From NCBI GenBank assembly GCA_905182255.1, contig CAJJAH010000002.1, positions 186,001 to 250,000 on the forward strand: 64,000 nt of DNA, written 5' to 3'. The notes beneath the pieces are model-generated. The model saw only the letters and a program-made list of their open reading frames with translations. It made no database searches and was not told the DNA's origin. Source of the DNA: Cryomorphaceae bacterium BACL11 MAG-121001-bin54. Its GTDB lineage: Bacteria; Bacteroidota; Bacteroidia; Flavobacteriales; BACL11. The position numbers were made by a program, and so were the translations under genes. Positions 282 to 64,000 of this stretch are shown piece after piece (the first letter of the stretch is position 1; every line of letters begins with the position of its first letter).

Positions 282-284
282 TAA

Positions 285-1218: not shown

Positions 1219-1222
1219 CAAT

Positions 1223-4140: not shown

Positions 4141-4144
4141 TTGA

Positions 4145-4152: not shown

Positions 4153-4187
4153 CTAATAACCAAAATAGGAAACCATAAACTATAAAC

Positions 4188-4195
4188 TATCTTTG
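4188..4195 (+). promoter_or_regulatory. -7 promoter box TATCTTTG of the gene starting at 4200
   Basis: TATCTTTG fits TAnnTTTG exactly and is separated from the ATG by CCTT (4 nt). It and the minus-strand box at 4145-4152 form a compact divergent promoter region of only 59 nt between the two start codons. Confidence 0.6.
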
Positions 4196-4199
4196 CCTT

Positions 4200-5081: not shown

Positions 5082-5678
5082 ATGTTAAAAAGTTTTTCTG
5101 AAAATAAAATAATTGCAGGATGTGATGAGGCAGGTAGAGGGTGCTTAGCTGGCCCAGTAGTTGCTGCTGCAGTAATACTTCCAAAAGGATTCAAAAATAA
5201 GATCCTAAACGACAGTAAAGTTCTATCGGAAAAAAGTAGAAATCTACTACGTAAGACTATTGAAAAACAAGCTATTTCTTGGGCAATAGGAATTGCTAGT
5301 GCTGATGAAATTGATAAAATAAATATTCTTAATGCTTCATTCCTTGCTATGCATAGGGCTATTCAAAAGTTAGAGATTGAAGCGGAACTACTTATAATTG
5401 ATGGTAATCGTTTTAACCCTTACCCTAATATCCCGCATAAATGTATTATTAAGGGAGATGGAAAATTTATGTCAATAGCTGCTGCATCAGTTTTAGCAAA
5501 AACTTATCGAGATCAGATAATGATAGATCTAGATCTAAATTCTCCAGATTATTATTGGAAAAACAACAAGGGATACCCTACTAAACAGCATAGAAAAGCA
5601 ATACAAGAAATTGGCATAAATAAGCAACACAGAAAAACTTTTCAACTACTTACCAATCAATTTACTTTATCCCTTTAA
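5082..5678 (+). CDS. rnhB: Ribonuclease HII
   Basis: RNase HII removes ribonucleotides misincorporated in DNA and RNA primers. The N-terminal motif [21 protein letters not shown] (about 13-33) contains the first catalytic Asp and Glu. LIIDGNRF supplies the next acidic residue, and [24 protein letters not shown] holds the conserved K.D....IAAASI.AK..RD motif. At 198 residues it is of normal length. It starts directly after the stop codon of the upstream exported-protein gene, consistent with a two-gene transcript. Confidence 0.96.
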
Positions 5679-5714
5679 ATTATTAATTTTGGAGTAATAT
5701 TTTCAAATATATCT

Positions 5715-46829: not shown

Positions 46830-47819
46830 TTATGCTGATATCAGCTTTTGTTGTAAATATTCTTGTCTTCTTTTTTGTATTGATTTAAGCTTGGTTTCCT
46901 TCCTTCTTTTGAGGATTTTTTCTTCTCTCCCAAAATAGACATCAGAAGGAGTTACGTTGCTCAAAGATTCATGATATCTTTCATTATTGTAATACTCTAC
47001 CCAGTCGTTTATTGCATTTTCTAACTCTGATGGACTGTAATAATGATGCAGTTTTACAATATTTTTCATAGATCTGTGATACCTCTCTATCTTTCCTTGG
47101 GTTTGAGGATGATTAGGTTTCCCCCTTACATGTCCCATTCCTATGTCTGATAAATAGGATTTTAACTCATTAGAGATATAACAACTTCCGTTATCAGATA
47201 GTAATCTTGGAAGTTCTTTTTCTTCCAGATTTGCATTGTAAATTGCAGTATCAATACTTCTTTTTACATCCTCAGTTTTCATTCTTTCACAGAGTTCCCA
47301 ACTCACAATATACCTGGAGTAATCATCCATAATAGTGGACAAATAATACCAACCATAATTTTTGATTTTAAAGTAGGTAAAGTCAGTCTGCCATTGTTGA
47401 TGTACTCTTGAGGGTTGGTCTTTAAACTTCTTTGAAGCAGCCATTACAATATAGGCTGGAGTAGTTATCAAGCCTCTTGTTTTTAGTATTCTATAAACAG
47501 AAGACTCAGAAATGAAATATCCTCTCTCATCTGTGATGTGTGCAGCTAACTCTCTTGGAGATAATTCAGGTCTTTCTAATGCAACTTTAACCGTTTTATC
47601 AATTAGTTTATCTGGTATTTTATTCCAGAACTTACTTCTTTTTCTCTCTTTAGGAGCAAGGCCATCAAAACCATTTTCATGGTATCTACCGTACCATTTA
47701 TAGAATGTACTGGAGTGAATATTCAACTCCTTAAGAGTAGGTTTTACGCCCAGTTCTGAACCTTCTACTATTTTGATAATCTCCATCTTTTCTTCTTGTT
47801 TGTATCTTCTATATTTCAT
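46830..47819 (-). CDS. IS3-family transposase OrfB (DDE integrase core)
   Basis: The 329-residue protein has an N-terminal helix-turn-helix region (SSTFYKWYGRYHENG), an HTH_21-like segment, and an rve integrase core. The DDE residues are seen in WQTDFTYFKIKNYG, LLSDNGSCYISNE and TQGKIERYHRSMKN. It catalyses strand cleavage and transfer. It lies in the -1 frame relative to orfA and has its own ATG 2 nt after the orfA stop, so it may be made separately as well as by frameshifting. Confidence 0.93.
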   Translation of the reverse strand: MKYRRYKQEEKMEIIKIVEGSELGVKPTLKELNIHSSTFYKWYGRYHENGFDGLAPKERKRSKFWNKIPDKLIDKTVKVALERPELSPRELAAHITDERGYFISESSVYRILKTRGLITTPAYIVMAASKKFKDQPSRVHQQWQTDFTYFKIKNYGWYYLSTIMDDYSRYIVSWELCERMKTEDVKRSIDTAIYNANLEEKELPRLLSDNGSCYISNELKSYLSDIGMGHVRGKPNHPQTQGKIERYHRSMKNIVKLHHYYSPSELENAINDWVEYYNNERYHESLSNVTPSDVYFGREEKILKRRKETKLKSIQKRRQEYLQQKLISA

Positions 47820-47821
47820 CC

Positions 47822-48169
47822 CTATTTTTCTGAAGTGTTGTTTTTTTTCAGAACCCTAAGTTCTAAACTTACCTCCTTAAACATATGGGTAAGTTCTTCA
47901 TTTTCTCTCTTAAGTTTCTTCACATCAGAAGTGTTTGCTTCTCTTAAAGTATCTCCTTGCAATCTATGTTTTCCAGCTTCCATAAAGTCCTTACTCCACT
48001 TGTAGTATGTTGCAGGTGTTATCCCGTGATTCCTGCAAATCTGAGCGATAGACTCTTCATGTTTAAATCCTGCCAATACAACTGCTATTTTCTCCTCAGA
48101 GTTGTATCTCTTTCTTGTCTTTCTTTTAAGTTCTTTTATGAACTTCATTGCGTTTTCTTTGTCTTTCAT
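47822..48169 (-). CDS. IS3-family transposase OrfA
   Basis: The 115-residue protein has an HTH_Tnp_1 domain (RYNSEEKIAVVLAGFKHEES, SIAQICRNHGITPATYYKW) followed by a leucine-zipper-like helix (LKRENEELTHMFKEVSLELRVLKK), as in other IS3 OrfA proteins that bind the terminal repeats. Near its 3' end, A AAA AAC in the reading frame (47846-47840) is a classic -1 slippery heptamer. No stop codon intervenes in the -1 frame before orfB, so an OrfAB fusion can be made. Confidence 0.9.
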   Translation of the reverse strand: MKDKENAMKFIKELKRKTRKRYNSEEKIAVVLAGFKHEESIAQICRNHGITPATYYKWSKDFMEAGKHRLQGDTLREANTSDVKKLKRENEELTHMFKEVSLELRVLKKNNTSEK

Positions 48170-48430: not shown

Positions 48431-49678
48431 TTAAAAGGAGAATTTACCCATAACTGCCTGCATATCTTCAGCTACTTTATCATCAGACATTTTAGCATAA
48501 ATTTGAGTAGTTTTAATATTAGCATGACCCATCATTTTTTGAATACTTTCAAGAGGTATTCCATTTCGCAAAGTAACTGTTGTACCAAAAGTATGGCGAG
48601 CAGAATGGTAAGTTAAGTTCTTATTGACTCCCGCCAATTTAGCAATCTCTTTTAAGCTCTTATTCATATAGGAATTAGAAAAAGAAGGGAACACTAATTT
48701 CTTTAAGCGTTCAATTTCTGGAGCTGAATGCTTCTGTTTAGTAGGAATAAAAACATCTTCATACTTATCGTAAATAACTTTTGCAGCATTGAGCAAAGGA
48801 ATATTAGTAGTACTTCCTGTTTTCTCCCTATAAGTCATTATCCATGACATCCCAGAAGAATCTAGCTCATACTCATCCTTCTTTAGTTTTTTAATATCAC
48901 AATAGGATAAGCCAGTGAAACAAGAGAACACATACATATCCCTAATTGGACTTAAAACATCACTCAACTGAATCTTAATCAATTTTGAAAGTTCAATATC
49001 AGTTAAGAAAGTCCTATCAACTTTTTCAAAATTATTCTTAAAATTAGCAAATGGGTCATGCGGCATCCATTCATTCCTTTTAGCTAAACTGCATATCTTT
49101 TTTAAACGCACAAAGTTCTTGGCAACTCCATTTTTTGAATTTCCAGTATGTAAAAAAAGATAGTGCTTAAATTTTTGGAGGAAATCATATTTCACCTTCA
49201 TAAGTGGATAATCACTTTTACTATACTGATGCTTAATAAATCGTTCAAGATGCCCATAGGTCATCTTATGATTCTTATGTGTCCCTCTCTTATAGTCGAC
49301 TCCAATAAGACTAAACATATCCTCATTATGCTTTTTATAAACTCCAAGTATCATATTCATAGCTCCAAGCTCGCCAAAGGCAACTTTTGCAATCTTCTTA
49401 GCTGTTATCTCTTCAAAGGACATTTTAAGCTCATCAAAAGCTTGGTGTATTTTCAATTCCCACTCATTTATGTGATTATTTAGCACATCTTCATCCTCAC
49501 AATCAACAACCTTAGAATGCGACTTTGACCAACAATTTAGGGCAACATATAGTTTTAATGAAAAACGGAAAAATTCACCCTTGTGATGTATCTCCATATA
49601 AATAGGGTACAAACCATTAGTCCTTTGCTTACCCTTGTATAGAAACTTTCTTATTCTTATTATATTGGTCATTTTCAC
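48431..49678 (-). CDS. Tyrosine integrase, IntDOT/CTn-like
   Basis: The 415-residue protein has an N-terminal arm-type domain (RKFLYKGKQRTNGLYPIYM), a SAM-like core domain (about 115-215) and a catalytic domain with HSARHTFGTTVTL (HxxR), MMGHANIKTTQIYAKM (His and the nucleophile Tyr). At the usual position of the first catalytic Arg it has FTGLSYCDIKKLKK, i.e. Ser, as in integrases of Bacteroides conjugative transposons such as IntDOT. It lies 475 nt from a tRNA-Pro 3' fragment and points away from it. Confidence 0.92.
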   Translation of the reverse strand: MKMTNIIRIRKFLYKGKQRTNGLYPIYMEIHHKGEFFRFSLKLYVALNCWSKSHSKVVDCEDEDVLNNHINEWELKIHQAFDELKMSFEEITAKKIAKVAFGELGAMNMILGVYKKHNEDMFSLIGVDYKRGTHKNHKMTYGHLERFIKHQYSKSDYPLMKVKYDFLQKFKHYLFLHTGNSKNGVAKNFVRLKKICSLAKRNEWMPHDPFANFKNNFEKVDRTFLTDIELSKLIKIQLSDVLSPIRDMYVFSCFTGLSYCDIKKLKKDEYELDSSGMSWIMTYREKTGSTTNIPLLNAAKVIYDKYEDVFIPTKQKHSAPEIERLKKLVFPSFSNSYMNKSLKEIAKLAGVNKNLTYHSARHTFGTTVTLRNGIPLESIQKMMGHANIKTTQIYAKMSDDKVAEDMQAVMGKFSF

Positions 49679-50656: not shown

Positions 50657-51109
50657 CTATTCAAAGAGAAAAACTTGCTGCTTTTTCATATACGATAATG
50701 TGAATTTTTCTGTCGAAATTTTCAACACTTTAATTCCGTATTTTTCATCCCCTACTCCCATTACAAATTGTTCGTTATTTATAGTAATAATAATTAGTTT
50801 TTTACGCTTACTTTTTACCGTTCCTTTATATTGAATTTCTGGCCAAATAACTTTCTGTATTTTTTTCGGTTTTATTTTTTGTTTTACTGCTTTATTTTTC
50901 GATTTTCTTTTTCGTAAAAACGGATCGTTATATTCCAACAATAAAACTGGCTTTTCAATTACTTGCTTAGGGATAATATTATTACGGATTACAGCTAACT
51001 GAACAGGCTCTGTATTATCAGCTGTTATTTCCCAAAAACGAAAGGCAACTATAGCCCAAACAATCAAGGTTAAAGGTAAAAGGAAATATACATTCTTTAT
51101 AACTTTCAT
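50657..51109 (-). CDS. GspC/PilP-like inner-membrane protein (last gene of secretion operon)
   Basis: The 150-residue protein has one N-terminal membrane segment (VYFLLPLTLIVWAIVAF), a basic linker (RKRKSKNKAVKQKIKPKK), and a small C-terminal domain: IQYKGTVKSKRKKLIIITIN, NEQFVMGVGDEKYGIKVLKI and EKFTLSY. This order is that of GspC and PilP, whose periplasmic homology-region domain links the inner-membrane platform to the secretin. It follows the lipoprotein gene by 1 nt. Sequence similarity is weak; position in the operon and architecture carry the call. Confidence 0.65.
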   Translation of the reverse strand: MKVIKNVYFLLPLTLIVWAIVAFRFWEITADNTEPVQLAVIRNNIIPKQVIEKPVLLLEYNDPFLRKRKSKNKAVKQKIKPKKIQKVIWPEIQYKGTVKSKRKKLIIITINNEQFVMGVGDEKYGIKVLKISTEKFTLSYMKKQQVFLFE

Positions 51110-51110
51110 T

Positions 51111-51755
51111 TTACTGCACTATAAATGTTCTTAATTCTGAAGTTGCACCTGTTCCTTGTTGATTAAAAATTTGTACTTGCCATTTATACCGTCCTTCTGC
51201 TAAAGAATAAGCAAAACTATCAACAGATAATATAACATCAACCAAAGGGCTATTATTGGTATCTAACAGTTGGAAATTATATAATTCAGCATTGTATAAA
51301 CTCTCCCAGCTAAATACTTGCATACCAATAGCAGTTGTGTCGTTATTATAGGGGCTTAGTAATAATACTGTATCCTGCAATACTTCCAAAATGCTATCCA
51401 CTTGCAATGCTCTTTTGGTATAAGGTGTTTCGCTACTGCCATTTACTGCCTTTACTCGCCAAGTAAATTCTGAAGAGTATAAGGTATGGTTAAATTTTGC
51501 ATTAGGAATAAGAGTATCCAAAACAACTTTCTCCAAACTCTCCCAACTGGGTGACGCTATTTGCAAGCGATATTCTAAAGCTCCTTCTACTTCCTCCCAA
51601 AGAAATTCATGAACTATTTCAGTTGTAAGTAAATTATCTTGTGGTGTTAATAATTTTACCTTTTGTTGCTGTAAATCTATTTCAAAAATATCAGTACATG
51701 AAAGTGCAAAAGAACAGAGTAAAACAGTGAATAGGTAAGTAGTCTTATTTTTCAT
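51111..51755 (-). CDS. Lipoprotein with fibronectin III-like repeats in secretion operon
   Basis: The 214-residue protein has a lipoprotein signal (TVLLCSFALSCTD). Two FN3-like repeats follow: VHEFLWEEVEGALEYRLQIA ... FTWRVKAVNGSSE (about 45-115) and QVFSWESLYNAELYNFQLLD ... YKWQVQIFNQQGTGATSE (about 140-210). It overlaps the GspM/PilO-like gene by 11 nt, so it is an integral operon member. It could be a pilotin-like or surface accessory component; classical T2SS pilotins have a different fold, so no function is assigned. Confidence 0.65.
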   Translation of the reverse strand: MKNKTTYLFTVLLCSFALSCTDIFEIDLQQQKVKLLTPQDNLLTTEIVHEFLWEEVEGALEYRLQIASPSWESLEKVVLDTLIPNAKFNHTLYSSEFTWRVKAVNGSSETPYTKRALQVDSILEVLQDTVLLLSPYNNDTTAIGMQVFSWESLYNAELYNFQLLDTNNSPLVDVILSVDSFAYSLAEGRYKWQVQIFNQQGTGATSELRTFIVQ

Positions 51756-52263
51756 TTTTCTTTATATTTTGTATGCAAATAGTTGTTAGTAGTTGAATCC
51801 TTTTTGTTTTTTTATTTTTTACTTTCTTAAAGAACAAAGAAGCTATGCTTCCTTGCTGTTTTTCTTCTAATTCTTCAATTAATTTTAAGGTATTTGAAAA
51901 AGAACCTTCAATGGTTATTTTATCAATCAATAATAAATACTCCCCTTTTTGCTGTACTAACTGTTTAGGAATATCTGAAATATTAAGTTTAAATCTTTGA
52001 CCTATTTCAGTAATTATAGCCAATAAATCTTCTTGCTTATTTGCATAAGAAATATGACCATCCAACATTAACAGTTGTGCTTTCATTTGCTTAATCTTCT
52101 CAGGAGATTCTTGTTTTAAAAGCAATTGTTGTTCTTGAATATCGGAAAGTTGAATAAGCTTTATCGTTTTTTTAAATGACAATTGATAAGCTACCAACAC
52201 AAGAAACACTACCAGTAGTAACAGTGCCTTGTTTTTATTTTTATAGGTCCAGTTAGCTGTCAT
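51745..52263 (-). CDS. GspM/PilO-like inner-membrane assembly protein
   Basis: The 172-residue protein has a short cytoplasmic N-terminus, one membrane helix (ALLLLVVFLVLVAYQLSF), a helical coiled-coil region (IQEQQLLLKQESPEKIKQMKAQ) and a small alpha/beta ferredoxin-like domain (LLLIDKITIEGSFSNTLKLI ... LFFKKV). This is the architecture of PilO and GspM, partners of PilN and GspL. It overlaps both neighbours by 11 nt. Assignment rests on architecture and position. Confidence 0.68.
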   Translation of the reverse strand: MTANWTYKNKNKALLLLVVFLVLVAYQLSFKKTIKLIQLSDIQEQQLLLKQESPEKIKQMKAQLLMLDGHISYANKQEDLLAIITEIGQRFKLNISDIPKQLVQQKGEYLLLIDKITIEGSFSNTLKLIEELEEKQQGSIASLFFKKVKNKKTKRIQLLTTICIQNIKKNEK

Positions 52264-53287
52264 GAATTAATACTTTAATTTCAAAATCTCCAACTTTACT
52301 TTCTTGCTTAAACCCCTCAATGCTTACTGACTCAATAAAATCAATAGCACTTAATTCTTTTATCCAAGCACTTAATAGTTTAGCAGAAGCATTTCCTTTA
52401 ATTAGTAATACTCCTTTTCGAAACACTCCTTTTTGTTTTGGGTATTCGGGTTGGATTACCCACTGCTGAAGAGAAAGTGAGGTTGGAATCGTTTCCGCTA
52501 TCCTGTCCGCATAATAGGAAAGTTCATATTTATTTTGTTCCCCTACTTCATTCAGGAGTGATTGCTGCTTATTTATTTCCTCAACTAACACATTCATTTC
52601 TTGCCGCTCAGCTTGATAGGTTAACAATTCGGAACTTAATTGATTAGTTGCCTCAGTATAATATATGAACAGTAAAAAATTGATGAGCAATGAAATGAAA
52701 AATACAATTCCAGTACCTCTAACACCATATTTAAATAACTGTTTATGCTTTGCTTCATTCGCCTTATTTTTCGCTAAACCCTCTCCTATTGGCTTGTGCC
52801 AATAAGCTATAGCTGATGCTTTGGAAAGCGAACTATCAGCAATGTAATTTTGAGCTGTTGTTCCTAACATTATATTTACAACATCAAAGCCCATTTCTTC
52901 AAATAAGGATATATATTCTTTTATTTTTTCGTTACGGATGATAAACACCCATTTTTCAGCATCAGATATTGGCACTTCTTCTATATAAAAATGCTGCATA
53001 TCGGCATTTGGCAATACGGAATCTAAAGTCTGTTCCTTGGGCACATCAACAGCTACTTTTCTTTTTATAAGTTGTGCTGTATTTATTGAAATAGAAAAAG
53101 GAGTATGCCTCCATACATCCAACATTTCATGAATAGGAATGGCTGGAAAATTATTCAGCTGCTGAAATTCTCCTTTAACCCTCTCAACAGTAGTTAGGTT
53201 TATCCTCAATTCCCCTTCAGGAGAAGAAAATAGTTCTGCTCCATGAATTTTTGGAGCATATAAAAGGTATTTTAATTTAGCAAACAT
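52253..53287 (-). CDS. GspL/PilN-like inner-membrane assembly protein
   Basis: The 344-residue protein has an N-terminal cytoplasmic region (about 1-185) that may be a degenerate actin-like (PilM/GspL cytoplasmic) domain, one membrane segment (GIVFFISLLINFLLFIYY, about 194-211), then a coiled coil (LLTYQAERQEMNVLVEEINK) and a ferredoxin-like domain (LLIKGNASAKLLSAWIKELS, FIESVSIEGF). This single-chain PilM-PilN arrangement is that of GspL, which recruits the GspE ATPase. It overlaps the secretin stop codon by 1 nt (TAATG). Confidence 0.7.
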   Translation of the reverse strand: MFAKLKYLLYAPKIHGAELFSSPEGELRINLTTVERVKGEFQQLNNFPAIPIHEMLDVWRHTPFSISINTAQLIKRKVAVDVPKEQTLDSVLPNADMQHFYIEEVPISDAEKWVFIIRNEKIKEYISLFEEMGFDVVNIMLGTTAQNYIADSSLSKASAIAYWHKPIGEGLAKNKANEAKHKQLFKYGVRGTGIVFFISLLINFLLFIYYTEATNQLSSELLTYQAERQEMNVLVEEINKQQSLLNEVGEQNKYELSYYADRIAETIPTSLSLQQWVIQPEYPKQKGVFRKGVLLIKGNASAKLLSAWIKELSAIDFIESVSIEGFKQESKVGDFEIKVLIHDS

Positions 53288-55167
53288 TAGTAATACACTG
53301 TAGGTTTAATAAAAATATTTAGCTTGTTTTTAGTTCTTGCTTTGGTTCTGCTACTAAAAAACCATTTAATAACAGGAATTCTTGAAAACCAAGGTAAACC
53401 ACTTCCGCTATCACTAATTTTCTTTTCTTCCAGCCCTCCTAACAAAACCATCTCTCCATCCTTTACCCTTATTAAAGAACTGAAATTACGGGATACTGTT
53501 CCTGGTGGTGCATCAGGAGAAATACGAGCTGTAAAATCAGATTGATTCACCTCAATTTCTAATGTAATTTGATTGTCTCCTGAAACAATAGGCTTTACTT
53601 TTATTGACATATCCGCTTTTACTGATTTGTAATGTTTTGTAATGATATTTTGAGGGTTTTGTGAGCCAATTACATTGTTTGTTTCCTCTAAATAGTACTC
53701 AGTATTTCCAATACTCATTGTTGCCTCATGACTATTAAGTGCCGCTAATTTTGGAGTAGAACGCACTTTAACTACACCATTGTCCTCCATAGCTTTTAGG
53801 CTCATGTAAAAACTTTGGTTCACTTTTCCTAAATTCATTAGCCCAAAACCATTGAAGCTATTTATTAGTTGATTGATTGAATTCGCGTTTAACTGGAAAT
53901 CTACCCCAGGATATAAAGCCCCTCCTGTTATTATATTTTCTCCTCCTCCCAAATGAGCCGTCATACCCAATGAAGCTGAACTGGTGCTATTATAATCCAC
54001 TATCATTACCTCAATAAGTATTAGAGGTACAACTTGGTCAATCTCTTTTATAAAAGCCTTTAATTCAATAATTTTTGGTTGTGAACCACTAAGTATTAAA
54101 GAATTTTGTTCAGAAAACTCTTTAATGCTTACTTCTTTTTTAAGTTCAGCAGGAATGATTTCTATTACATCCTTTACAGTTCGGTATTGTAATTTTACAA
54201 CTTCTGTATTTCTTAATCCTTCTGATTTTCGGTCTCCAATTAAATAAATACCTTCCTTTTTACTAAAAGTATATTCTGTACCACTAAGCATATAGGTTAG
54301 CAACTCATCAATATTTGCCGCTCGCATGCTTAAGGTTAAATCTCCTTTTAGGTTAGTGGCAATAAAATAGTTGAGATTTAACTGCCTTGCTGTTTCCTGT
54401 ACTACTCCTGACAAACCCTGCTTATATGCCTCAATATAAACCCTACCAAGCGTATCAACCTCAATGCTTAACTCAGTAGTATTTTTATACTTTGCATTTG
54501 TTTTTTTGGTACTACTACTATTTTTTGCAGGAGATGATTTCTTTTCAATTACATAATAGCCATCATCAGAAATTCTTGCTTGCAAATCATTAGAAAATGC
54601 TAATTTTTCAATAGCACTTTTAAAAGGTTTTTCCTGAATATATACGGACACTAACTTATCAGATAACCCTGGTGCTAAAATTACATTATGCCCACTAATT
54701 TGAGTAATCGCTTTTACTACTCTTTGCAAGGAATCTTTCTTTAAATCCAAGGTAAGTGTATCGGCTAAAAATTGAATTCCTAAAGACTTAGGAACATAAG
54801 GTATAATTACTTTTTCAGGAATAAATTTACTTACTGAAATAATATTTCCTACAATGGTTAAATCCAGTTCGTATTCTCGGCACAAGAACAATAATACATC
54901 TGTTACTCTAACATTCGAGAATGTATTTGTAATGCTAATATTCAACTCTGGTGAGATGCTAATATTTACTCCATTAGCAACTGCCAAAGCATTAATAAAT
55001 TCTTTGATATTTACCCTACTTACTGATAATTCCACTGGTTTTTCAAGACCTGGATTATCAATAATCAATGTTTCTAATTGATTGTTTAATTGTGTAATCC
55101 TATCCTGAGCAATTGCTGTTGTATGGATAAAGATTAACAAATAAAATAAGTATTTCAGTTTTTTCAT
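53287..55167 (-). CDS. gspD: Type II/IV-pilus secretin
   Basis: The 626-residue outer-membrane channel protein has a signal peptide (cut after TTAIAQ), an N0/STN-type domain (VNIKEFINALAVANGVNISI, about 52-110), further N domains (KPFKSAIEKLAFSNDLQARI; VVQETARQLNLNYFIATNLK; VVKLQYRTVKDVIEIIPAEL), and the secretin core (about 395-626) with VKDGEMVLLGGLEEKKISDS and LPWFSRIPVIKWFFSSRTKA, the conserved secretin signature. It would form the outer-membrane pore through which substrates or pseudopili pass. The stop overlaps the next gene's start, and the start overlaps gspE by 4 nt. Confidence 0.9.
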   Translation of the reverse strand: MKKLKYLFYLLIFIHTTAIAQDRITQLNNQLETLIIDNPGLEKPVELSVSRVNIKEFINALAVANGVNISISPELNISITNTFSNVRVTDVLLFLCREYELDLTIVGNIISVSKFIPEKVIIPYVPKSLGIQFLADTLTLDLKKDSLQRVVKAITQISGHNVILAPGLSDKLVSVYIQEKPFKSAIEKLAFSNDLQARISDDGYYVIEKKSSPAKNSSSTKKTNAKYKNTTELSIEVDTLGRVYIEAYKQGLSGVVQETARQLNLNYFIATNLKGDLTLSMRAANIDELLTYMLSGTEYTFSKKEGIYLIGDRKSEGLRNTEVVKLQYRTVKDVIEIIPAELKKEVSIKEFSEQNSLILSGSQPKIIELKAFIKEIDQVVPLILIEVMIVDYNSTSSASLGMTAHLGGGENIITGGALYPGVDFQLNANSINQLINSFNGFGLMNLGKVNQSFYMSLKAMEDNGVVKVRSTPKLAALNSHEATMSIGNTEYYLEETNNVIGSQNPQNIITKHYKSVKADMSIKVKPIVSGDNQITLEIEVNQSDFTARISPDAPPGTVSRNFSSLIRVKDGEMVLLGGLEEKKISDSGSGLPWFSRIPVIKWFFSSRTKARTKNKLNIFIKPTVYY

Positions 55168-56561
55168 TCTTGGTGTAATAATATTGGATAGACTTCTTCA
55201 AAAGTTGTTTTTCCTTGCATTAATAATTTAAGTGCACTTTCAGCCAATGCATTTTTTCGTTTTCCTTCCCATTGTTGGTCTTTAATACTTTCCGAGAGTT
55301 TTTCATCAATAGGCAATACATCATAAATTGCTTTTCTTCCTTTATAGCCTGTATAATGACATTGAGAACAACCCACTGCCTTGTACTGATGGCTTAATGT
55401 AACTTGAGAGAAAGCAGCAGGCAACATTTCTTTTTGAAAAACCTCTTTATGTTTACATTCAGGGCAAAGCAAACGCAACAAGCGTTGAGCAACCGATAGG
55501 TTAAGCGTATCCGCTATTAAAAAAGAAGGAATACCCATATCAATTAATCGAGCAATGGTACCCCATGCTGAATTGGTGTGTATTGTTGATAATACCAAAT
55601 GACCCGTAAGTGCAGCACGAATTGCCATCTGTGCAGTTTCAGCATCCCGAATCTCCCCTACCATTACTATATCAGGGTCCTGTCGTAAAAAGGTACGCAA
55701 TGCTTTAGGAAAATCTAAGCCTATATCTTCTTTCAATTGTACCTGATTGATTCCTTCTAAAGTATATTCTATGGGGTCTTCAATGGTTAAAATATTTACA
55801 TCCTTTTGGTTGAGTTGCTTTAGGCTTGCGTACAATGTGGTTGTTTTACCTGAACCTGTTGGTCCACTAATTAAAACCAAGCCTTGTGTTTTTTTAATTC
55901 CTTGAAGGTAGCCTGCTAATTGTTCCTGCTGAAATCCTAACTGCTCAAGATCCACTTGTTTTGCACTTTTACTCAGTAGCCTTAGCACTACTTTCTCACC
56001 AAAATGAGTAGGTAAAATAGAAACTCGAATATCCAAATCAAGAATTTTAAGGGTTATTCTCCCATCCTGAGGCAATCTTTTTTCAGCAATATCGAGCATT
56101 GCCCTAATTTTAATTTTATTTACCAAAGCAGGATAATCCGATTTTGGAATACTGTAACGCTCCATGAGTTTACCGTCCAAACGCATACGCACCCTGCACC
56201 TTTCATTGTAAGATTCAATATGAATATCACTACAGCCTATGGCATGGGCTTCCTTTATGAGTTCTTCAAAAAAATCGCTACCCGATAACTGATTTGTTTT
56301 TTCGTACTTTCTATAATGTTTTGCTAAGGCCTTTTTTATAAGGGGTGCAGGAGATTTTTCTAAACTTATGTTTTTTCCTAAGAGAGCTTCTAACTCATAT
56401 TTTATAGTGGATGTATCGGCAGTATCCTCTATTAAAAAAGTAATATCCCCATTGTGCTGATATTTGGGTATAATGCCAAAATGATGCGCCTGCTGAGCAG
56501 TAATTAATTGCAGCAGTTCTACTTCAATATCTTCTAATTGATGGTTCATAATGGAATCCAA
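55164..56561 (-). CDS. gspE: GspE/PilB-type secretion or pilus-assembly ATPase
   Basis: The 465-residue cytoplasmic ATPase powers pseudopilus assembly. Visible motifs: GCSDIHIESYNERCRVRMRLDG (N2 domain), LISGPTGSGKTTTLYASL (Walker A, about 231-248), the Asp box TIEDPIEYTLEG, RQDPDIVMVGEIRDAETAQ (Walker B and His-box region), LVLSTIHTNSA, and four zinc cysteines in LLCPECKH (366 and 369) and GCSQCHYTG (398 and 401) typical of extension ATPases rather than PilT. It overlaps the prepilin-peptidase gene by 16 nt. Confidence 0.95.
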   Translation of the reverse strand: MDSIMNHQLEDIEVELLQLITAQQAHHFGIIPKYQHNGDITFLIEDTADTSTIKYELEALLGKNISLEKSPAPLIKKALAKHYRKYEKTNQLSGSDFFEELIKEAHAIGCSDIHIESYNERCRVRMRLDGKLMERYSIPKSDYPALVNKIKIRAMLDIAEKRLPQDGRITLKILDLDIRVSILPTHFGEKVVLRLLSKSAKQVDLEQLGFQQEQLAGYLQGIKKTQGLVLISGPTGSGKTTTLYASLKQLNQKDVNILTIEDPIEYTLEGINQVQLKEDIGLDFPKALRTFLRQDPDIVMVGEIRDAETAQMAIRAALTGHLVLSTIHTNSAWGTIARLIDMGIPSFLIADTLNLSVAQRLLRLLCPECKHKEVFQKEMLPAAFSQVTLSHQYKAVGCSQCHYTGYKGRKAIYDVLPIDEKLSESIKDQQWEGKRKNALAESALKLLMQGKTTFEEVYPILLHQE

Positions 56562-57016
56562 TTTAACTCTGTTGCTACTAAACTAAGCATCCAACTCATT
56601 GCTAAGAAACCAGCAAAAGGGATGGGATAATTTTTTTCCTTATTGAAATAAATAATAGGTAAGGACACTAATAATGCAAATACAGCAGCAAAAAGTATGA
56701 GCAGTAAAAAATGTAAAGGTGGGAAAGCCGCACACATCACGCAAATGAATAACACATCTCCTTTTCCTAGAGCATAGTCAATAAATTGATGCGACTTTCC
56801 GTACCTTAAACTGTGATAACCTTTTATTAATAACAGTTGTATTATCCATAGTGCATTATTTGTAAAAAAACTCATTGTCCAATTTTGCCATGTATTGTCC
56901 AATAGCTGATAATAAGCAGCAGCAACAAACAAGATTGGAAATAAATACCAAGCGATAGCACGGTATTTAAAATCCTGATAGACAAAGGCTGATAAAATAC
57001 TACTGAGCACTATCAT
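56546..57016 (-). CDS. Prepilin peptidase (A24 family, short form)
   Basis: The 156-residue integral membrane protein has about five hydrophobic segments. The two catalytic aspartates of A24 aspartyl proteases are seen in VYQDFKYRAIAW (first Asp, about residue 14) and YALGKGDVLFICVMCAAFPP (GxGD motif). It lacks the N-terminal methylase domain with paired CxxC found in PilD, like TadV/CpaA-type or archaeal-type enzymes. It should cleave the pseudopilin encoded 1 nt upstream at its Gly-Phe junction. Confidence 0.85.
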   Translation of the reverse strand: MIVLSSILSAFVYQDFKYRAIAWYLFPILFVAAAYYQLLDNTWQNWTMSFFTNNALWIIQLLLIKGYHSLRYGKSHQFIDYALGKGDVLFICVMCAAFPPLHFLLLILFAAVFALLVSLPIIYFNKEKNYPIPFAGFLAMSWMLSLVATELNWIPL

Positions 57017-57017
57017 C

Positions 57018-57419
57018 CTAATCTTTTTGAGTTTCTAACAATTTCTTATCCTGATCTATAACCCAGACATTGTACTTTCCATCTCCATCAAAATCAACCA
57101 CAGCTGTTGCTGTTGCTGTAAAACCTTGTGTATTTGCTTCAGTAATTTCAATTTGGTAGTTAGCACTCCCCTTTACCGTTACTAAGGCAATTTGTTCAAA
57201 ACCTAATTCATCAAAAGAATCGCTATAGCGAGAATGTAAATAGAAATGATTCTTTTCTAATGTATAAAGGTGTTCCAGTTGTAATTGTGCTTCTGTACTT
57301 TTAGCACGAGAGATAAGTGGCATTAAACTGGGCAAAGCCATCAGCACCAATATACCAATAATTACGAGTACTACCAATAGCTCCGCTAAGGTAAACCCGT
57401 TGAGTTTGTGTTGTTTCAT
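57018..57419 (-). CDS. gspG: Type II pseudopilin (GspG-like)
   Basis: The 133-residue protein has a class III signal: MKQHKLNG|FTLAELLVVLVIIGILVL, with Phe+1 and Glu+5 followed by a hydrophobic helix. The globular part ends with VVDFDGDGKYNVWVIDQDKK, resembling the calcium-binding loop of major pseudopilins. It is the first gene of the leftward operon and lies 1 nt from its processing peptidase. No minor pseudopilin genes are present in the window. The 173-nt gap to the divergent Rhs gene should hold its promoter, but I find no clean TAnnTTTG box. Confidence 0.88.
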   Translation of the reverse strand: MKQHKLNGFTLAELLVVLVIIGILVLMALPSLMPLISRAKSTEAQLQLEHLYTLEKNHFYLHSRYSDSFDELGFEQIALVTVKGSANYQIEITEANTQGFTATATAVVDFDGDGKYNVWVIDQDKKLLETQKD

Positions 57420-57592: not shown

Positions 57593-58564
57593 ATGCATTT
57601 TTCAAGCCAAAACACAGCTAACACTCTGAATATCAAAGGCGATTACTATCCTTTCGGAAGTTTGAAACCATTAAGACATTCAGGGTCAAATAATTATAGG
57701 TTCAGTTTTAACGGTATGGAGGTTGATAATGAGGTAAAAGGCGATAATAATAGTTTAGATTTTGGAGCTCGTATTTATGACCCAAGAATTGGGAGGTTTT
57801 TGAGTATTGACCCAGCTTTTAACGAATATCCCTCAATATCTCCTTATACTGGACTTGGAAATAATCCATTGGTTTTTATTGATCCAGATGGGAAGAGATT
57901 GTATTTTGTTGGCGGGGCAGGAAATGATGCCAAAGGATGGAATTACATTAATAGGTTTAAAAGAATATTTACTCAAAAGGGAATTAAAGGCTTTACTAGA
58001 ATTAATGCTTCTGGAGGTGTAAATAAAGATATTGCATTCACAGCCACCTATAAGAATTTTTCTCATATCGGAAATCAATTAGTTAAGTCTGGTTCAGTTC
58101 TTGAGGTGAAATTAAAACGTAGAGATCATAAACAAATTGAAAAAGCAGTAAATGATATAATGATTGATCTTCAAAATAATCCACTAAAAGAAGGAGAGCA
58201 ATTGAATTTAGCAGGTTATAGTTATGGTAGTGTGTTGCAAGCTAATGTTGCTTTACAATTGGCAGATAAAGGTGTTAAAGTAGATAATCTTATTTTAATT
58301 GGTAGTCCAATATCTGATAAATCAGAACTGTTTAAAGCTTTAAATTCAAATAAGAATATTGGAAAAGTAATTAGAAAAGATATACCAGGTGATAAGTTAA
58401 GTAATCCACAATCAAATTGGGATTTCTTTGAAGGAGGTAAGCAAAACCTTGATCCAAATGATAAAGGTGTGGGACCTCATTTTGATTATGCAAGGCCAGG
58501 AACTGAAACAGATAGGAAAATAGGACAGTTAGGGGATGAACTTAAGAAAAATGGAGTAGAGTAA
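57593..58564 (+). CDS. Short Rhs-core protein with alpha/beta-hydrolase toxin tip
   Basis: I start at the ATG at 57593 (MHFSSQNTANT). Residues about 14-100 are the end of an RHS core: GDYYPFGSLKPL, NNYRFSFNGMEV, FGARIYDPRIGRFLSIDP and YTGLGNNPLVFIDPDG. After this junction comes a unique tip (about 103-323) with LNLAGYSYGSVLQANVALQL, a GxSxG nucleophile elbow, and later GPHFDYA as a possible catalytic His, suggesting a lipase/esterase-type toxin. No YD-repeat body exists upstream, so this is an orphan cassette. Its stop overlaps the ATG of a small membrane-protein gene (TAATG), the likely immunity gene. It is divergent from the secretion operon. Confidence 0.82.
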   Translation: MHFSSQNTANTLNIKGDYYPFGSLKPLRHSGSNNYRFSFNGMEVDNEVKGDNNSLDFGARIYDPRIGRFLSIDPAFNEYPSISPYTGLGNNPLVFIDPDGKRLYFVGGAGNDAKGWNYINRFKRIFTQKGIKGFTRINASGGVNKDIAFTATYKNFSHIGNQLVKSGSVLEVKLKRRDHKQIEKAVNDIMIDLQNNPLKEGEQLNLAGYSYGSVLQANVALQLADKGVKVDNLILIGSPISDKSELFKALNSNKNIGKVIRKDIPGDKLSNPQSNWDFFEGGKQNLDPNDKGVGPHFDYARPGTETDRKIGQLGDELKKNGVE

Positions 58565-58836
58565 TGAAAGGTAAAATCATAGTCTTAGCTTTATTTTCTT
58601 TTATTATTTACATTTTACTATGCGCTGTATTTTTTTTTGCAACTCCTTTTATGGTAAGTTGGGGTGAAGCAAAGCCATGGTATTTACAAGCAATAATTTT
58701 TGCTCAGGATTTTCCTTTTAATTTAATTAGAAGTAATGGAGAAATCAAGATGAGTCTTATATTTATTAATGCTTTATTTTGGAGTTCAAGTTTAATAGGA
58801 ATGTTTTGGATGCTTTTTGTGAAAAGTAAAAGATAA
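58564..58836 (+). CDS. Putative immunity protein (small membrane protein)
   Basis: The 90-residue protein has two hydrophobic segments (VLALFSFIIYILLCAVFFFA and INALFWSSSLIGMFWMLF) and no recognisable domain. It starts inside the stop codon of the Rhs/hydrolase gene, so translation is coupled; in polymorphic-toxin loci the gene directly after the toxin tip is normally the cognate immunity gene. A membrane location fits protection against a membrane-active or lipid-hydrolysing toxin. The function is inferred from position only. Confidence 0.65.
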   Translation: MKGKIIVLALFSFIIYILLCAVFFFATPFMVSWGEAKPWYLQAIIFAQDFPFNLIRSNGEIKMSLIFINALFWSSSLIGMFWMLFVKSKR

Positions 58837-59324: not shown

Positions 59325-59332
59325 TATCTTTA
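59325..59332 (+). promoter_or_regulatory. -7 promoter box TATCTTTA of the second Rhs cassette
   Basis: TATCTTTA is followed by CATC and the ATG at 59337 (4-nt spacing). The box and start region are nearly identical to those of the cassette starting at 63829 on the other strand. Confidence 0.5.
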
Positions 59333-59336
59333 CATC

Positions 59337-60188
59337 ATGCAAGTAGCCCTTAAAAATAGCACTTTTTCCTATCCTTTCGGGTCGCTCAAAGCTAGTAGAA
59401 ATGCAAGCACGAGTAATTATAGGTTCAGTTTTAACGGGCAAGAGGGCACTGATGAGCTAAGTGGTGTAGGAAACCATACTACTGCTACTTTTTGGGAATA
59501 TGATACACGCCTTGGAAGAAGGTGGAACTTAGATCCTGTTATAAAATATGGGCAATCTGGTTATAGTACATTTGCTAATAATCCAATATGGTTTATTGAC
59601 CCTAATGGTGCTGATAGTTTAAAGTTTGATGCGGGCGGAATGTATACTGGTCAAGTAAAAGCAGAAGGTGATCATGTTGGGCAGTTAGCTGATGGAACAA
59701 CTTTTTCTTTTGCTGACCAAAGCTGGGGAGATAAATTTACTACTGACGAATATCCACAAGAAAGTGATGGGAAAGGTTTTAATAGTATTTTTGTTGTCCC
59801 TGATAAAGATATTGCAGGAATATTAGAAGGTTCAGGAGTAAACGATAAAAAAAATATAATAAGTAAATATTATTATGCCTTAACAGAAAGTAGAGGAAAT
59901 GATAAAAAAATGGATTTTGTAAATAACTCCAAAGTAAAAAAAATGGTTAAAGAAAATCGATACTCATTGTTTATGACTAAAGGGGAAAAAGATAATATGG
60001 CTCATGATACTTTCAATTTTGGAAATTTTATGTGGGGAGCAGGAATGAGTAAATTGAAAATCCCTTACATAGATGCTGTAATAGGGGGTTATATTGATAA
60101 TATGTATCATCATGGGTTAGAATTAGATTCTAAAGATGATCAGAGGTCAATTAAGGCTGGGTATAAATGGAATTATGAAAATAAATAA
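59337..60188 (+). CDS. Short Rhs-core protein with toxin tip (Toxin_44-like)
   Basis: The 283-residue product starts MQVALKNSTFSYPFGSLKAS and contains the RHS-core end (NYRFSFNGQEG, WEYDTRLGRRWNLDP, YSTFANNPIWFIDPNG) in residues 1-98. The tip (about 99-283) contains MAHDTFNFGNFMWGAGMSKL and YIDAVIGGYIDNMYHHG near its end; the FNFGNFMWG.A pattern resembles polymorphic toxin type 44, but this is by eye only. It has its own -7 box 4 nt before the ATG and is followed 4 nt later by a lipoprotein gene, the likely immunity partner. Confidence 0.8.
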   Translation: MQVALKNSTFSYPFGSLKASRNASTSNYRFSFNGQEGTDELSGVGNHTTATFWEYDTRLGRRWNLDPVIKYGQSGYSTFANNPIWFIDPNGADSLKFDAGGMYTGQVKAEGDHVGQLADGTTFSFADQSWGDKFTTDEYPQESDGKGFNSIFVVPDKDIAGILEGSGVNDKKNIISKYYYALTESRGNDKKMDFVNNSKVKKMVKENRYSLFMTKGEKDNMAHDTFNFGNFMWGAGMSKLKIPYIDAVIGGYIDNMYHHGLELDSKDDQRSIKAGYKWNYENK

Positions 60189-60192: not shown

Positions 60193-60735
60193 ATGAATCA
60201 TTTAATTACTTATCTAATCTTACTTTTTGGTTTAACTGGGTGTGCACAGAATAATATTGATGTTATAATAGAGAATTATAAAAATTGCAATTTAACTCAA
60301 TTTAATAATTTTGAAATAGTTCCAAGAGATGGAGATGATGAAAGTCAATATTTCATGAGTTATTATACTCCACTTAAAGATACAGGAAAGGGAGTTAAAG
60401 TTGGATTTCCTTTGTTTGATGTTGTTTTCTTTGAAAAAACATATTTTGACTCAATGAAAATTTCATTTTTTATAGAGCCACTTGAAAAGTCCTTTTTTTG
60501 TAATAAGGTGGGAATTGATACCTCTAATTTTGAACCCTATATAATTAATCTATTTCAAGATTTTACAAAATTAAAATGTAAATCAATAAATTTCAGAAAT
60601 GGTATTTATATTATTAAGAATAGTAGATATTCTATTGTTTATCTTAGTAAATATAATATTTCTCATAATAAAAAATTATTAAGTCGTGGGTATTTAATGT
60701 ATGATGATGATTGGTATTATAAATTAGAACCTTAA
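60193..60735 (+). CDS. Putative immunity lipoprotein
   Basis: The 180-residue protein has a lipoprotein signal (MNHLITYLILLFGLTGCAQ) and a mature part of alternating strands (GVKVGFPLFDVVFFEKTYF, NGIYIIKNSRYSIVYLSKYN). It follows the Rhs toxin gene by 4 nt on the same strand, the expected place of the cognate immunity gene. Anchoring to a membrane in the periplasm would suit neutralising an incoming toxin there. No named family is recognised. Confidence 0.62.
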   Translation: MNHLITYLILLFGLTGCAQNNIDVIIENYKNCNLTQFNNFEIVPRDGDDESQYFMSYYTPLKDTGKGVKVGFPLFDVVFFEKTYFDSMKISFFIEPLEKSFFCNKVGIDTSNFEPYIINLFQDFTKLKCKSINFRNGIYIIKNSRYSIVYLSKYNISHNKKLLSRGYLMYDDDWYYKLEP

Positions 60736-61123: not shown

Positions 61124-61154
61124 GTTTCTTTATTGAAAATCAATAAATAGAAAC
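61124..61154 (+). repeat. Inverted repeat just before the recombinase start
   Basis: GTTTCTTTATTGA and TCAATAAATAGAAAC pair over 13 bp with a 2-nt bulge and a 3-nt loop, ending 2 nt before the ATG at 61157. It could be an operator for autoregulation or a recombination site of this recombinase. Confidence 0.5.
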
Positions 61155-61156: not shown

Positions 61157-62266
61157 ATGAAAATTATTATTAGAAAAAAGGATAGAGTCCTTAATCAAGA
61201 GGCTTTTTTAGTATTGCTAACTGATTTTATAAAAGATACAGCAGCAGGAAGGAGAACCAAAAGTAATGGCTCTTTAATTAGTCATTCTACAGTAGAGAAC
61301 TACATACATATGAAAAGGTTAGTACAGAACTTTAGCAAGCAATCTACCTTTGAGATAAAGCTCTATTTGGTAAATAATTTGAACCAAGCAGAAAAAGAAA
61401 ATGCGCATAAATACTATAGGAAACTTTATATTGCTTTTACAAACTATATGTATGATGACCTTAATTATTTTGATAATTATGTAGGCAATGTAATCAAATG
61501 CTTAAAAGCATTTTTTAATTACTTGATAAAAGAAAGAAGTATAGAAATTGGAAACTATCACAGGTTATTTTATGTGCCTCATGAGGAGATTCCTATCATA
61601 GCCTTAAACAGAGAGCAATTGAATTATGTAATAAATAATGCTACATTCAAACGCAAAGTAAAAGAAAACGATTTAGAGGTTGTTAGAGATGTTTTTATCT
61701 TTGGTTGTACTGTTGCCCTCCGTGTCTCTGATTTATTGACCCTATCACCTAAAAACTTGGTAATACGAGATAATAAACATTACATTCAAGTTAAATCTCA
61801 AAAAACAAAGAAGAATACCGTTATAAAGTTGCCCGACTATTGTGTTACTATTCTTAGAAAATACAAAGGAAAACAAGAAACTTTATTGCCAAGTTGTAGC
61901 TTATTTTCTTTTAATTCAAAATTGAAGAAGATGGCTACTTTATTTCCTGATAATTTTGAGCTGGTAAAAACACGCGAGAAAAGAGGAAAACAAATTGTTA
62001 TTTATAAAAACCCAAAATTAAAAACGCATTATAAACTATCCGACCATATGAGTTCCCATGTTATGCGCAGGACAGGAATTACTACTATGCTTAACTTGGG
62101 AATGCCCGAATATATGGTAAGAAGAATTTCAGGGCATACTGCCAATAGTAAAGAATTCTTCCGCTATGTTCAACTCTCTCAAAACCTAGTAGATAAAGAA
62201 ACAGATAGAGTATTTGAACAATTAGCTATGAAGAATAATGTCAAAGTGGAAAACAGGAAGCAATAA
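61157..62266 (+). CDS. Tyrosine recombinase within the Rhs cassette array
   Basis: The 369-residue protein has an N-terminal core-binding domain (VENYIHMKRLVQNF; LNQAEKENAHKYYRKLYIAF) and a catalytic domain with Arg in CTVALRVSDLLTLSP, Lys in VKSQKTKKNTVIKL, HxxR in MSSHVMRRTGIT, His in RRISGHTANSKEFF and Tyr in RYVQLSQN. It differs from the two arm-domain integrases elsewhere in the window. A second, broken 3' copy lies at 63859-63981 next to another Rhs cassette. The start is preceded by a 31-nt inverted repeat. It may move or rearrange the toxin cassettes. Confidence 0.9.
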   Translation: MKIIIRKKDRVLNQEAFLVLLTDFIKDTAAGRRTKSNGSLISHSTVENYIHMKRLVQNFSKQSTFEIKLYLVNNLNQAEKENAHKYYRKLYIAFTNYMYDDLNYFDNYVGNVIKCLKAFFNYLIKERSIEIGNYHRLFYVPHEEIPIIALNREQLNYVINNATFKRKVKENDLEVVRDVFIFGCTVALRVSDLLTLSPKNLVIRDNKHYIQVKSQKTKKNTVIKLPDYCVTILRKYKGKQETLLPSCSLFSFNSKLKKMATLFPDNFELVKTREKRGKQIVIYKNPKLKTHYKLSDHMSSHVMRRTGITTMLNLGMPEYMVRRISGHTANSKEFFRYVQLSQNLVDKETDRVFEQLAMKNNVKVENRKQ

Positions 62267-62385
62267 ACTCTCTATTGACGGCATTCATTACTAAAAAAAA
62301 TTACAAAGTATTTTGTATATAAAAAAGCCACTAACTACTTAAATATATAACTATACCCAGATATAAAATATTTTGGATACTTAAA

Positions 62386-62772
62386 TCATTGCATGACTAT
62401 GGTATAACAATCAATTGAATTGATTTTTTCTATAGGGATTTCCAAAAGAGAGTCGTTATCCAAACTACCTATTTCCATATAAGAAAAACAAAGCTTATCA
62501 GCATCTCTTATCAGCTTCCTAGTACTAAGTTTGGTTATTAGCGGAGCATGTTCCTTCGTCAGATGAATAATACTATCCGTAACGAATGACTCACCTTTCT
62601 CTATTATAGTTTTACCAATAAGAATATCATAATTTCCATCTTTATATAAATTCAAAATTTCTGTTTTCAATCCCTGAATTCTTGTTGCTTTTATAAGTAA
62701 TTCACTATTCCTATTGCTCGAACAAGATAGAATTACTATTAGAATTAAAAAGATTATAAATTCATTTTTCAT
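62386..62772 (-). CDS. Putative immunity lipoprotein
   Basis: The 128-residue protein has a lipoprotein signal (MKNEFIIFLILIVILSCSS). The mature part is short and of no recognised family (KTEILNLYKDGNYDILIGKT, SFVTDSIIHLTKEHAPLITK). It follows the Rhs/hydrolase gene at 62798-63829 by 25 nt on the same strand, so it is the probable cognate immunity protein, in the same toxin-then-lipoprotein order as 59337/60193. Confidence 0.62.
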   Translation of the reverse strand: MKNEFIIFLILIVILSCSSNRNSELLIKATRIQGLKTEILNLYKDGNYDILIGKTIIEKGESFVTDSIIHLTKEHAPLITKLSTRKLIRDADKLCFSYMEIGSLDNDSLLEIPIEKINSIDCYTIVMQ

Positions 62773-62797
62773 TAAATACCTTAATTTTAGTTAACTA

Positions 62798-63829
62798 TCA
62801 ATCTCTAGATGATGCAGGATTAACACTACCTTTTATTGTTCCAGCGCCTTTCATTAGTGATCCCTGATCAGGGTTTCCAAATACATTAGGACTACCACTA
62901 CTAGCTGGATTATACGTTTTTTGGGTTCTGCTCTTCGCTAAACCTACAGCATCTTTTCCTGATATGAAATTATTAATATCTTTTGCAATATTACCTACTT
63001 GGTCATTATCAATTGAACGGTGATTTGAACCAGGAGAAAGTATATTAGCACCATTTGTTGCATTATTCAAAATATCTATCCTTTCACCACCTACAGCTTC
63101 AGTGGTTTGATAATAATTAATAACATTTTTCACATTTGAAGTAATATTATTATCATCAATTCCATACGGCTTGGGATCTTGTGTGTCAATTAAAATCAAT
63201 AAATCAATTTGTAGACTAGGATTATCTTTAGCAAGCTCTACAGCATTATCACCTCCACCACTATGACCGACTATAATAACCTTACTGCCAGAATTAGCGG
63301 TTTTAAATGCTTGGATAGTTATTTTAACATCATTTTTAGTATTTTCTGTTGAAGATGAGGAATAGGTAACTACCTGAATGTCTGTCCTTCCTTTTGCTGC
63401 TTGTGCAATCTTTCCTAAACCTGTCATATCTAAACCTCCATTAGCTGGATCATATTGAGCTTGTGTTTTTCCATTCTTTGGGTCGACCCCATAACCTTGT
63501 AAAATAAGAATTAATGTTCCTGTATTCGGATTAGCTGTAGCAGGCTCAAGTCCTTCAAGATCAAAAGCAGCGATTGGGCTATTTCCTGCATATTGATACG
63601 GAGATAGCGCTGCAAATTGTTTAGACAATGGATCAACCGATTTATATCTACCCAATCTTGTATCATAACTTCTAAACAAATGCTCTTGAGCATTTCCTTC
63701 TTCTGAAATCTCATTCGCGTTCTCTGCTCCAATAAACCCAAATCTATACTCATTACCACCAGAGTACCTAAGAGGTTTTAGTGACCCGAAAGGATAGGAA
63801 TATGGGCTATTTTTAAGGGCTACTTGCAT
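62798..63829 (-). CDS. Short Rhs-core protein with alpha/beta-hydrolase toxin tip
   Basis: The 343-residue product starts MQVALKNSPYSYPFGSLKPL, with RHS-core end motifs EYRFGFIGAEN, RSYDTRLGRYKSVDP and SPYQYAGNSPIAAFDLEG up to about residue 93. The tip (about 97-343) is an alpha/beta hydrolase: KVIIVGHSGGGDNAVELAKD provides the GxSxG nucleophile, LILIDTQDP a possible acid and SNHRSIDNDQ a possible His, so a lipase or related esterase toxin is likely. It is unlike the hydrolase tip at 57593. It has its own -7 box 4 nt before the ATG. A lipoprotein gene follows. Confidence 0.82.
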   Translation of the reverse strand: MQVALKNSPYSYPFGSLKPLRYSGGNEYRFGFIGAENANEISEEGNAQEHLFRSYDTRLGRYKSVDPLSKQFAALSPYQYAGNSPIAAFDLEGLEPATANPNTGTLILILQGYGVDPKNGKTQAQYDPANGGLDMTGLGKIAQAAKGRTDIQVVTYSSSSTENTKNDVKITIQAFKTANSGSKVIIVGHSGGGDNAVELAKDNPSLQIDLLILIDTQDPKPYGIDDNNITSNVKNVINYYQTTEAVGGERIDILNNATNGANILSPGSNHRSIDNDQVGNIAKDINNFISGKDAVGLAKSRTQKTYNPASSGSPNVFGNPDQGSLMKGAGTIKGSVNPASSRD

Positions 63830-63833
63830 GAGG

Positions 63834-63841
63834 TAAAGATA
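63834..63841 (-). promoter_or_regulatory. -7 promoter box TATCTTTA of the minus-strand Rhs cassette
   Basis: The minus-strand TATCTTTA is followed by CCTC and the ATG at 63829: the same box and 4-nt gap as at 59325. Confidence 0.5.
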
Positions 63842-63858
63842 GAAATATTATCAAGAGA

Positions 63859-63981
63859 ATACTGCCAATAGTAAGGAATTCCTTCCGCTATGTTCAGCTT
63901 TCACAAACCCTAGTGGATGAAGAAACTGATAAGGTGTTTGAGAAATTGTTATTACTCATGAAAAATACTCTTTTCTCTTAG
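63859..63981 (+). pseudogene. 3' scrap of a second copy of the array recombinase
   Basis: Starting with ATACTGCCAATAGTAA, the sequence parallels 62142 onward of the recombinase gene. It codes for TANSKEF, then after one inserted C for FRYVQLSQTLVDEETDKVFE, and ends TAG at 63979. The Arg and HxxR parts are missing. The scrap begins only 18 nt from the -7 box of the minus-strand Rhs cassette, so that cassette replaced or interrupted the recombinase copy. Confidence 0.8.
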
Positions 63982-64000
63982 AATATCTAACAAGTGATTC

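Follow-up and report, generated by a model that had tools for sequence, protein, structure and literature searches.

The stretch of DNA analysed (64,000 nucleotides, hereafter the window), from Cryomorphaceae bacterium BACL11 MAG-121001-bin54, contains an intact tyrosine recombinase gene, REC (61157-62266, + strand), within an array of Rhs cassettes, as the preliminary description of the locus had proposed. The encoded protein of 369 amino acids matches Pfam PF00589 (Phage_integrase, E=3.5e-11), and its catalytic residues R189, K216, H301, R304, H327 and Y337 are invariant in an alignment of 11 orthologous sequences. This R-K-H-R-H-Y set, together with the fold, places REC among the tyrosine recombinases. 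The structure predicted by AlphaFold2 (pLDDT 90.5) has XerA, XerH and Tn1549 Int as its best matches among solved structures, and also resembles Cre; a sequence search of the PDB with REC returned no match. Searches of viral contigs yielded a single weak match, and tblastn of REC against plasmids (E<1e-5) matched solely Bacteroidota plasmids. When genome contigs were scanned, the single REC sequence retrieved nothing, and orthologues were found with the alignment as query. The window also encodes two more tyrosine recombinases (39559-40785, +, and 48431-49678, −), distantly similar to REC, whose genes lie near an IS3-type transposase pair (46830-48169).

Rhs genes are named as rearrangement hotspots. 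REC is surrounded by four short genes that encode an Rhs core and a tip, two on the left (+) and two on the right (−); the cores are at 57.6 kb (+), 59.4 kb (+) and 63.6 kb (−), while the fourth (−) lies beyond the window and reaches the contig end 1.3 kb past it. Cassette A (57593-58564, +; TIGR03696 E=6.6e-15) has an alpha/beta-hydrolase-like tip with Abhydrolase_8 and Thioesterase matches, and is followed by a gene for a small membrane protein without a Pfam match (58564-58836, +), a candidate immunity gene on the basis of its position and hydrophobic sequence. Cassette B (59337-60188, +) matches TIGR03696 at E=2.5e-7, just under the cut-off, and passed the cut-off in a second search; the lipoprotein-like gene after its tip (60193-60735, +), which belongs to no significant family, is a candidate immunity gene by virtue of position and a lipobox-like start. 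By the same two features, the lipoprotein-like gene after tip C (62386-62772, −; no Pfam match) is a further candidate. Cassette C itself (62798-63829, −; TIGR03696 E=1.6e-9) encodes a further alpha/beta-hydrolase-like tip, with weak S33 and Lipase_3 matches. In cassette D (−), the core of which is cut by the contig end, the tip is metalloprotease-like; the 3′ end of its candidate immunity gene occupies 63956-64000 (−), and this gene and the D tip run on to the contig end (L004). Cassettes A, C and D exceed the TIGR03696 cut-off. A core, a variable C-terminal domain and a small downstream gene, the architecture of Rhs polymorphic toxins, are thus all present in the window. Gene order and the hydrolase- or protease-like nature of the tips suggest that each would be neutralised by its own immunity protein.

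The four cassettes differ in how they begin. Cassette A, on the side of the secretion-like operon described below, carries the canonical site GATTACTATCCTTTCGG (57641-57657, +), which marks the inverted-repeat boundary in orthologous loci, and the sequence GATTACTATCC occurs only once in the window, at 57641 in this cassette. Cassettes B and C carry the variant site TTCCTATCCTTTCGG (with CTATCCTTTCGG at 59369 in B, and the site ending at 63797 in C) and have their own start codons within a common leader. In B this leader (59325-59376, +) comprises a −7-like box, the start codon and the peptide MQVALKNS, and is identical at 49 of 53 positions to 63790-63842 of C. Cassette D, at the contig end, begins CCTTTCGGAAG; it is 81% identical to A over 252 bp, with one mismatch in the first ~40, and the contig stops at CCTTTCGG of the conserved site. 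As D matches A, and B and C have variant sites and their own starts, A and the contig-end D are probably the active pair, and B and C are probably displaced, independently started copies. A search with RHS_repeat found no full-length Rhs gene in the 53%-complete draft genome, so the proposed switch is visible only in part here; the full-length gene should lie beyond the contig end.

Between cassettes C and D lies a frameshifted 3′ scrap of an older REC (63859-63980, +). In a BLASTN alignment (E=3e-22) the segment 63859-63947 (+) is 84% identical in DNA to REC 62136-62223, with one base inserted, and as protein it corresponds to REC residues 287-362 with stops. Its start lies outside the leader of the inverted Rhs gene (62798-63829, −), at a distance of ~14-18 nt, which bears out the earlier report of a broken recombinase copy beside that leader. 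Besides REC itself and this scrap, the 1.04-Mb draft genome contains no further piece of the gene. The resulting gene order is REC (+), immunity C (−), tip C (−), REC scrap (+), immunity D (−) and tip D (−). To the left of the array, 50657-57419 (−) is occupied by an operon resembling those of type II secretion systems and type IV pili, which encodes a prepilin, a prepilin peptidase, a GspE ATPase, a secretin and other proteins (Pfam T2SSE 1.3e-126, Secretin 1.3e-36, N_methyl and Peptidase_A24).

Orthologues of REC, with identities of 36-45%, are found in Flavobacteriaceae, Chitinophagaceae and Cytophagales. Relatives with REC and no rhs neighbours, the pattern that the preliminary description named as counting against its proposal, are not what these loci present: in 82 of 86, Rhs cores lie within 10 kb of REC, mostly as inverted pairs that face it, and in L080, one of the remaining four, the sequence stops at the site within a truncated core. 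Among cores downstream of REC 76 point towards the recombinase gene and 1 away, and upstream the numbers are 93 and 19, the 19 mostly deriving from loci where REC sits just outside the pair. In complete loci one core belongs to a full-length Rhs gene (its open frame spans ~2,500-3,000 codons in the sequence read) and its partner is an orphan consisting of core plus tip. Arrays contain up to six cores (L034/L095). The orthologous secretion-like operon adjoins REC loci, and is on the orphan side in nearly every two-core locus that displays both the flank type and the operon. The recurrence of this layout in orthologous loci excludes chance. The loci thus have inverted specific repeats at alternative C-terminal segments beside a recombinase gene, as a shufflon does. 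A circular 26.9-kb 'plasmid' of Flavobacterium N1861 (NZ_CP109997.1, L039) contains much of a REC/Rhs/secretion locus; two of its Rhs copies have almost identical starts and share a strand. On account of the shared strand, and because the molecule may be a circularised chromosomal assembly fragment, L039 was left out of the orientation evidence.

Alignment of the paired inverted cores of each locus revealed unrelated sequence upstream and abrupt near identity from GATTACTATCC onwards. The boundary sits inside the DYYPFG codons at the start of the Rhs core, and does so alike where the flank is coding (...PDVxSYND) and where it is noncoding. The conserved site, within the Rhs core, is GATTACTATCC(N)TT(Y)GG. 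The Tyr-Tyr pair is encoded by TACTAT in 92 of 96 REC-linked sites, compared with 10 of the 55 DYYPFGM sites in 198 Bacteroidia genomes (Fisher p=7e-24, in a test that treats related genomes as independent and ignores shared ancestry). Any REC carriers were left in the control set, which makes the comparison conservative. The pattern search of the 198 genomes replaced an initial codon control of thirty general Rhs loci, as these contained only three DYYPFG sites. The fixation of TACTAT indicates that the DNA itself is constrained, as a recombinase site predicts. A motif near AAGTTCTTTTATTTATTGA is conserved in the noncoding orphan-side flanks, at a distance of ~20-37 nt upstream from the site (L026-L120), and may represent a promoter, an old leader or an accessory site for the recombinase. 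Extra members of the arrays often have degenerate sites. Two other elements had been put forward as sites of REC action. The dyad upstream of REC (61124-61154) is not conserved upstream of the inspected orthologous REC genes, with a partial likeness in L109 only, and was rejected as a crossover site; it is more likely an operator or a chance dyad. The leader module at 59325 was also discarded, since no other fetched locus contains a copy.

Comparisons between related loci argue for inversion of the segment. On the operon side, 8.3 kb of Flavobacterium sp. Root420 (L085) and F. pectinovorum (L087) align collinearly at 88%, and so do 8.5 kb (86%) on the side of the full-length Rhs gene, but the REC region between these flanks (89.5%) is inverted. 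The REC segment is likewise inverted between L033 and L103 (93% flank) and between L101 and L103. Of the loci that have REC within the segment, 20 place the full-length gene upstream of REC and 13 downstream. In 7 of 9 pairs, homologous tips are found in opposite slots. A 1.5-kb tip-immunity block is part of the full-length gene in L087 and of the orphan in L103, although the orientation of REC is the same in both. This indicates cassette transfer as well as inversion, and shows that simple inversion alone is insufficient to explain every difference. Several contigs end at the outer repeat boundary: both ends of L066 and L081 begin GATTACTATCC, L047 has both ends a few bases outside the boundary, and L044, L090, L106 and L030 each have a single end within 2 bases of it. 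Contigs that start exactly where the flanks become identical would be expected of k-mer assembly if the reads hold both orientations. Breaks can also occur at static repeats, although one of only ~26 bp, the length of the identical repeat in L066, should have been bridged. In the REC-bearing contig of Psychroserpens burtonensis (L072) the first 80 bases are the reverse complement of the last 80, so that an inverted repeat terminates the contig.

The loci also record growth of the arrays. Flavobacterium agri (L076) has the same order as the window, with a 120-bp, 94% identical REC 3′ scrap between two inverted cassettes. Other forms are an inverted REC 3′ scrap in L119, an inverted 5′ REC fragment in L066, and a second REC copy, 96.6% identical over 945 bp, in L063. 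These loci support the earlier proposal of repeating recombinase-plus-cassette units, one of them overwritten, and their simplest reading would be that new units, each of REC, immunity gene and tip, are inserted next to an earlier REC whose end alone survives. Such units may arrive by recombination with foreign copies. In L066, positions 1-6724 constitute a candidate invertible segment, with REC at one end and the inverted 5′ REC fragment (96.5%) at the other, and both ends of the contig fall exactly at the site.

The operon is strongly linked to REC. Of 396 genomes of the order, all 10 that carry a true orthologue of REC encode the secretion-like ATPase, as do 21 of the remaining 386 (p=1.9e-12, again with related genomes treated as independent). 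In the stretches read from 19 operon-bearing genomes without REC an inverted Rhs pair was found in none, and a few had a nearby Rhs core. Among 13 genus siblings, several of them incomplete drafts, neither REC nor the ATPase was detected and Rhs cores were present in one. The absence of REC and the ATPase from the siblings, and of Rhs cores from 12 of the 13, suggests that REC, the Rhs cores and the operon were probably gained together. The siblings lack the system, and inversion of the window's own locus is thus not seen in any close relative. The one sibling Rhs core (G012:C133, L182) is in a large open frame of 2051 amino acids; at the thresholds applied, this sibling has neither REC nor the secretion-like ATPase.

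The explanation that best accounts for these data, and one in which we place considerable confidence, is a shufflon-like switch in which REC exchanges Rhs toxin tips by inversion. REC would recognise GATTACTATCC(N)TT(Y)GG inside the DYYPFG codons. Two inverted copies of the site, one in the full-length Rhs gene and one at the orphan, would bound a segment that inverts when REC recombines them, thereby joining the full-length gene in frame to the other tip, with both tips and both immunity genes remaining in the chromosome. Recombination with foreign copies would add units of REC, immunity gene and tip, leaving displaced cassettes and REC scraps. The layout, the common site, the boundary of the repeat, the constraint on the DNA, the differing orientations in related species and the presence of homologous tips in either slot are read directly from the sequences; from there we infer that REC is the enzyme acting at the GATTACTATCC site, that inversion takes place in living cells, that the tips are antibacterial toxins and that the neighbouring secretion-like operon participates.

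The cores of one locus share up to ~250 bp at 75-100% identity, and Salmonella is a documented case in which main and orphan rhs genes undergo homologous recombination (PMC3967940). RecA-dependent homologous recombination between Rhs cores might therefore swap the tips, with REC an incidental neighbour. This is unlikely, as the repeat starts at the same codon everywhere, exact identity extends down to ~26 bp (L066), and the choice among synonymous codons is fixed in the DNA. Furthermore, inverted pairs accompany REC in nearly all loci, and operon loci without REC have no such pairs in the stretches read. The view that REC is the integrase of a mobile element, inserted near Rhs genes by chance, is scarcely credible, even though REC matches phage and plasmid integrase families. 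There is no tRNA in the window, and in several families REC is flanked by, or next to, inverted Rhs copies. The more remote integrases that the same searches recovered (5 loci) have no Rhs neighbours.

The preliminary description had envisaged a dedicated system for toxin tips, loosely like an integron. The dedicated system survives as tip inversion, which is supported by the 82 loci, the abrupt site and the orientation differences, but the likeness to an integron does not. Gain over time is indeed indicated by displaced orphans, by the REC scraps that separate cassettes and by arrays with as many as six tips, as would be expected if REC excised and inserted single Rhs cassettes at a fixed site. 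Integron cassettes, however, share one orientation and each end in an attC hairpin, while the Rhs cassettes are inverted pairs that converge on REC, with the site at the 5′ coding end and often degenerate in extra array members. REC is also not an IntI-type integrase, scoring 36 bits against the XerA/integron-integrase model, for which the cut-off is 220. Capture of this kind is thus very unlikely to explain the loci.

The R64 shufflon, which the proposed REC-driven switch resembles in function, is a better analogue than the integron. In R64 the tyrosine recombinase Rci joins the constant N-terminus of PilV to alternative C-termini in a type IV pilus operon, and only one side of the sfx sites is conserved (PMC11852207). 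As in R64, the recombinase is encoded with the switch, the sites are at the start of the alternative C-terminal segments with just one side conserved, inversion would join a constant N-terminus to a new C-terminus, and a type IV pilus-type operon is linked. Unlike in R64, where a pilus adhesin is switched, the target is an Rhs polymorphic toxin accompanied by immunity genes, REC is often inside the invertible segment and the site is GATTACTATCCNTTYGG. Close homology to Rci, the mark of Rci-type invertases, was not evident in the plasmid tblastn search, where only Bacteroidota sequences matched. Another recombinase-linked system of Bacteroidota is the SusC/SusD shufflon of Bacteroides, in which Tsr0667 generates alternative surface proteins (cited in PMC11852207); its targets differ from those of REC.

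The REC loci also resemble enterobacterial rhs loci, in which a full-length gene and orphan rhs-CT/immunity modules exchange tips (PMC3967940; PMC3150448). The enterobacterial orphans are downstream of the main gene, and the available text of PMC3967940 mentions no site-specific recombinase; in Salmonella, exchange is attributed there to homologous recombination after duplication, with deletion of one copy of the immunity gene. Zhang et al. 2012 (PMC3482391) described RHS proteins that have variable toxin tips and standalone cassettes, with many examples in Bacteroidetes; the accessible part of that paper contains neither 'inversion' nor 'integrase' and does not describe a REC/Rhs switch. No description of recombinase-driven inversion of Rhs tips was found in the openly licensed literature covered by the searches, which is weak evidence of absence. 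REC very probably flips inverted, toxin-like Rhs ends, and the system is apparently a widespread, undescribed DNA switch of Bacteroidota that combines two known kinds.

The documented tip swap, by homologous recombination, may cost an immunity gene, while inversion would spare both. The strong link to a pilus- or secretion-like operon is a lead on Rhs export in Bacteroidota, and a role for the operon in Rhs delivery would be plausible. It is conceivable, though we hold this only tentatively, that REC, the full-length Rhs gene, the swappable tips and the operon make up a single antibacterial weapon that moves horizontally, with Rhs exported by a pilus-type machine and its toxin chosen by programmed inversion. 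The ~80 carrier genomes include cultured Flavobacterium species, making the switch directly testable; F. pectinovorum DSM 6368, Mesonia and Aquimarina are examples of carrier isolates. If the proposal is correct, switching would be reversible, and one clone could hold sub-populations with different weapons.
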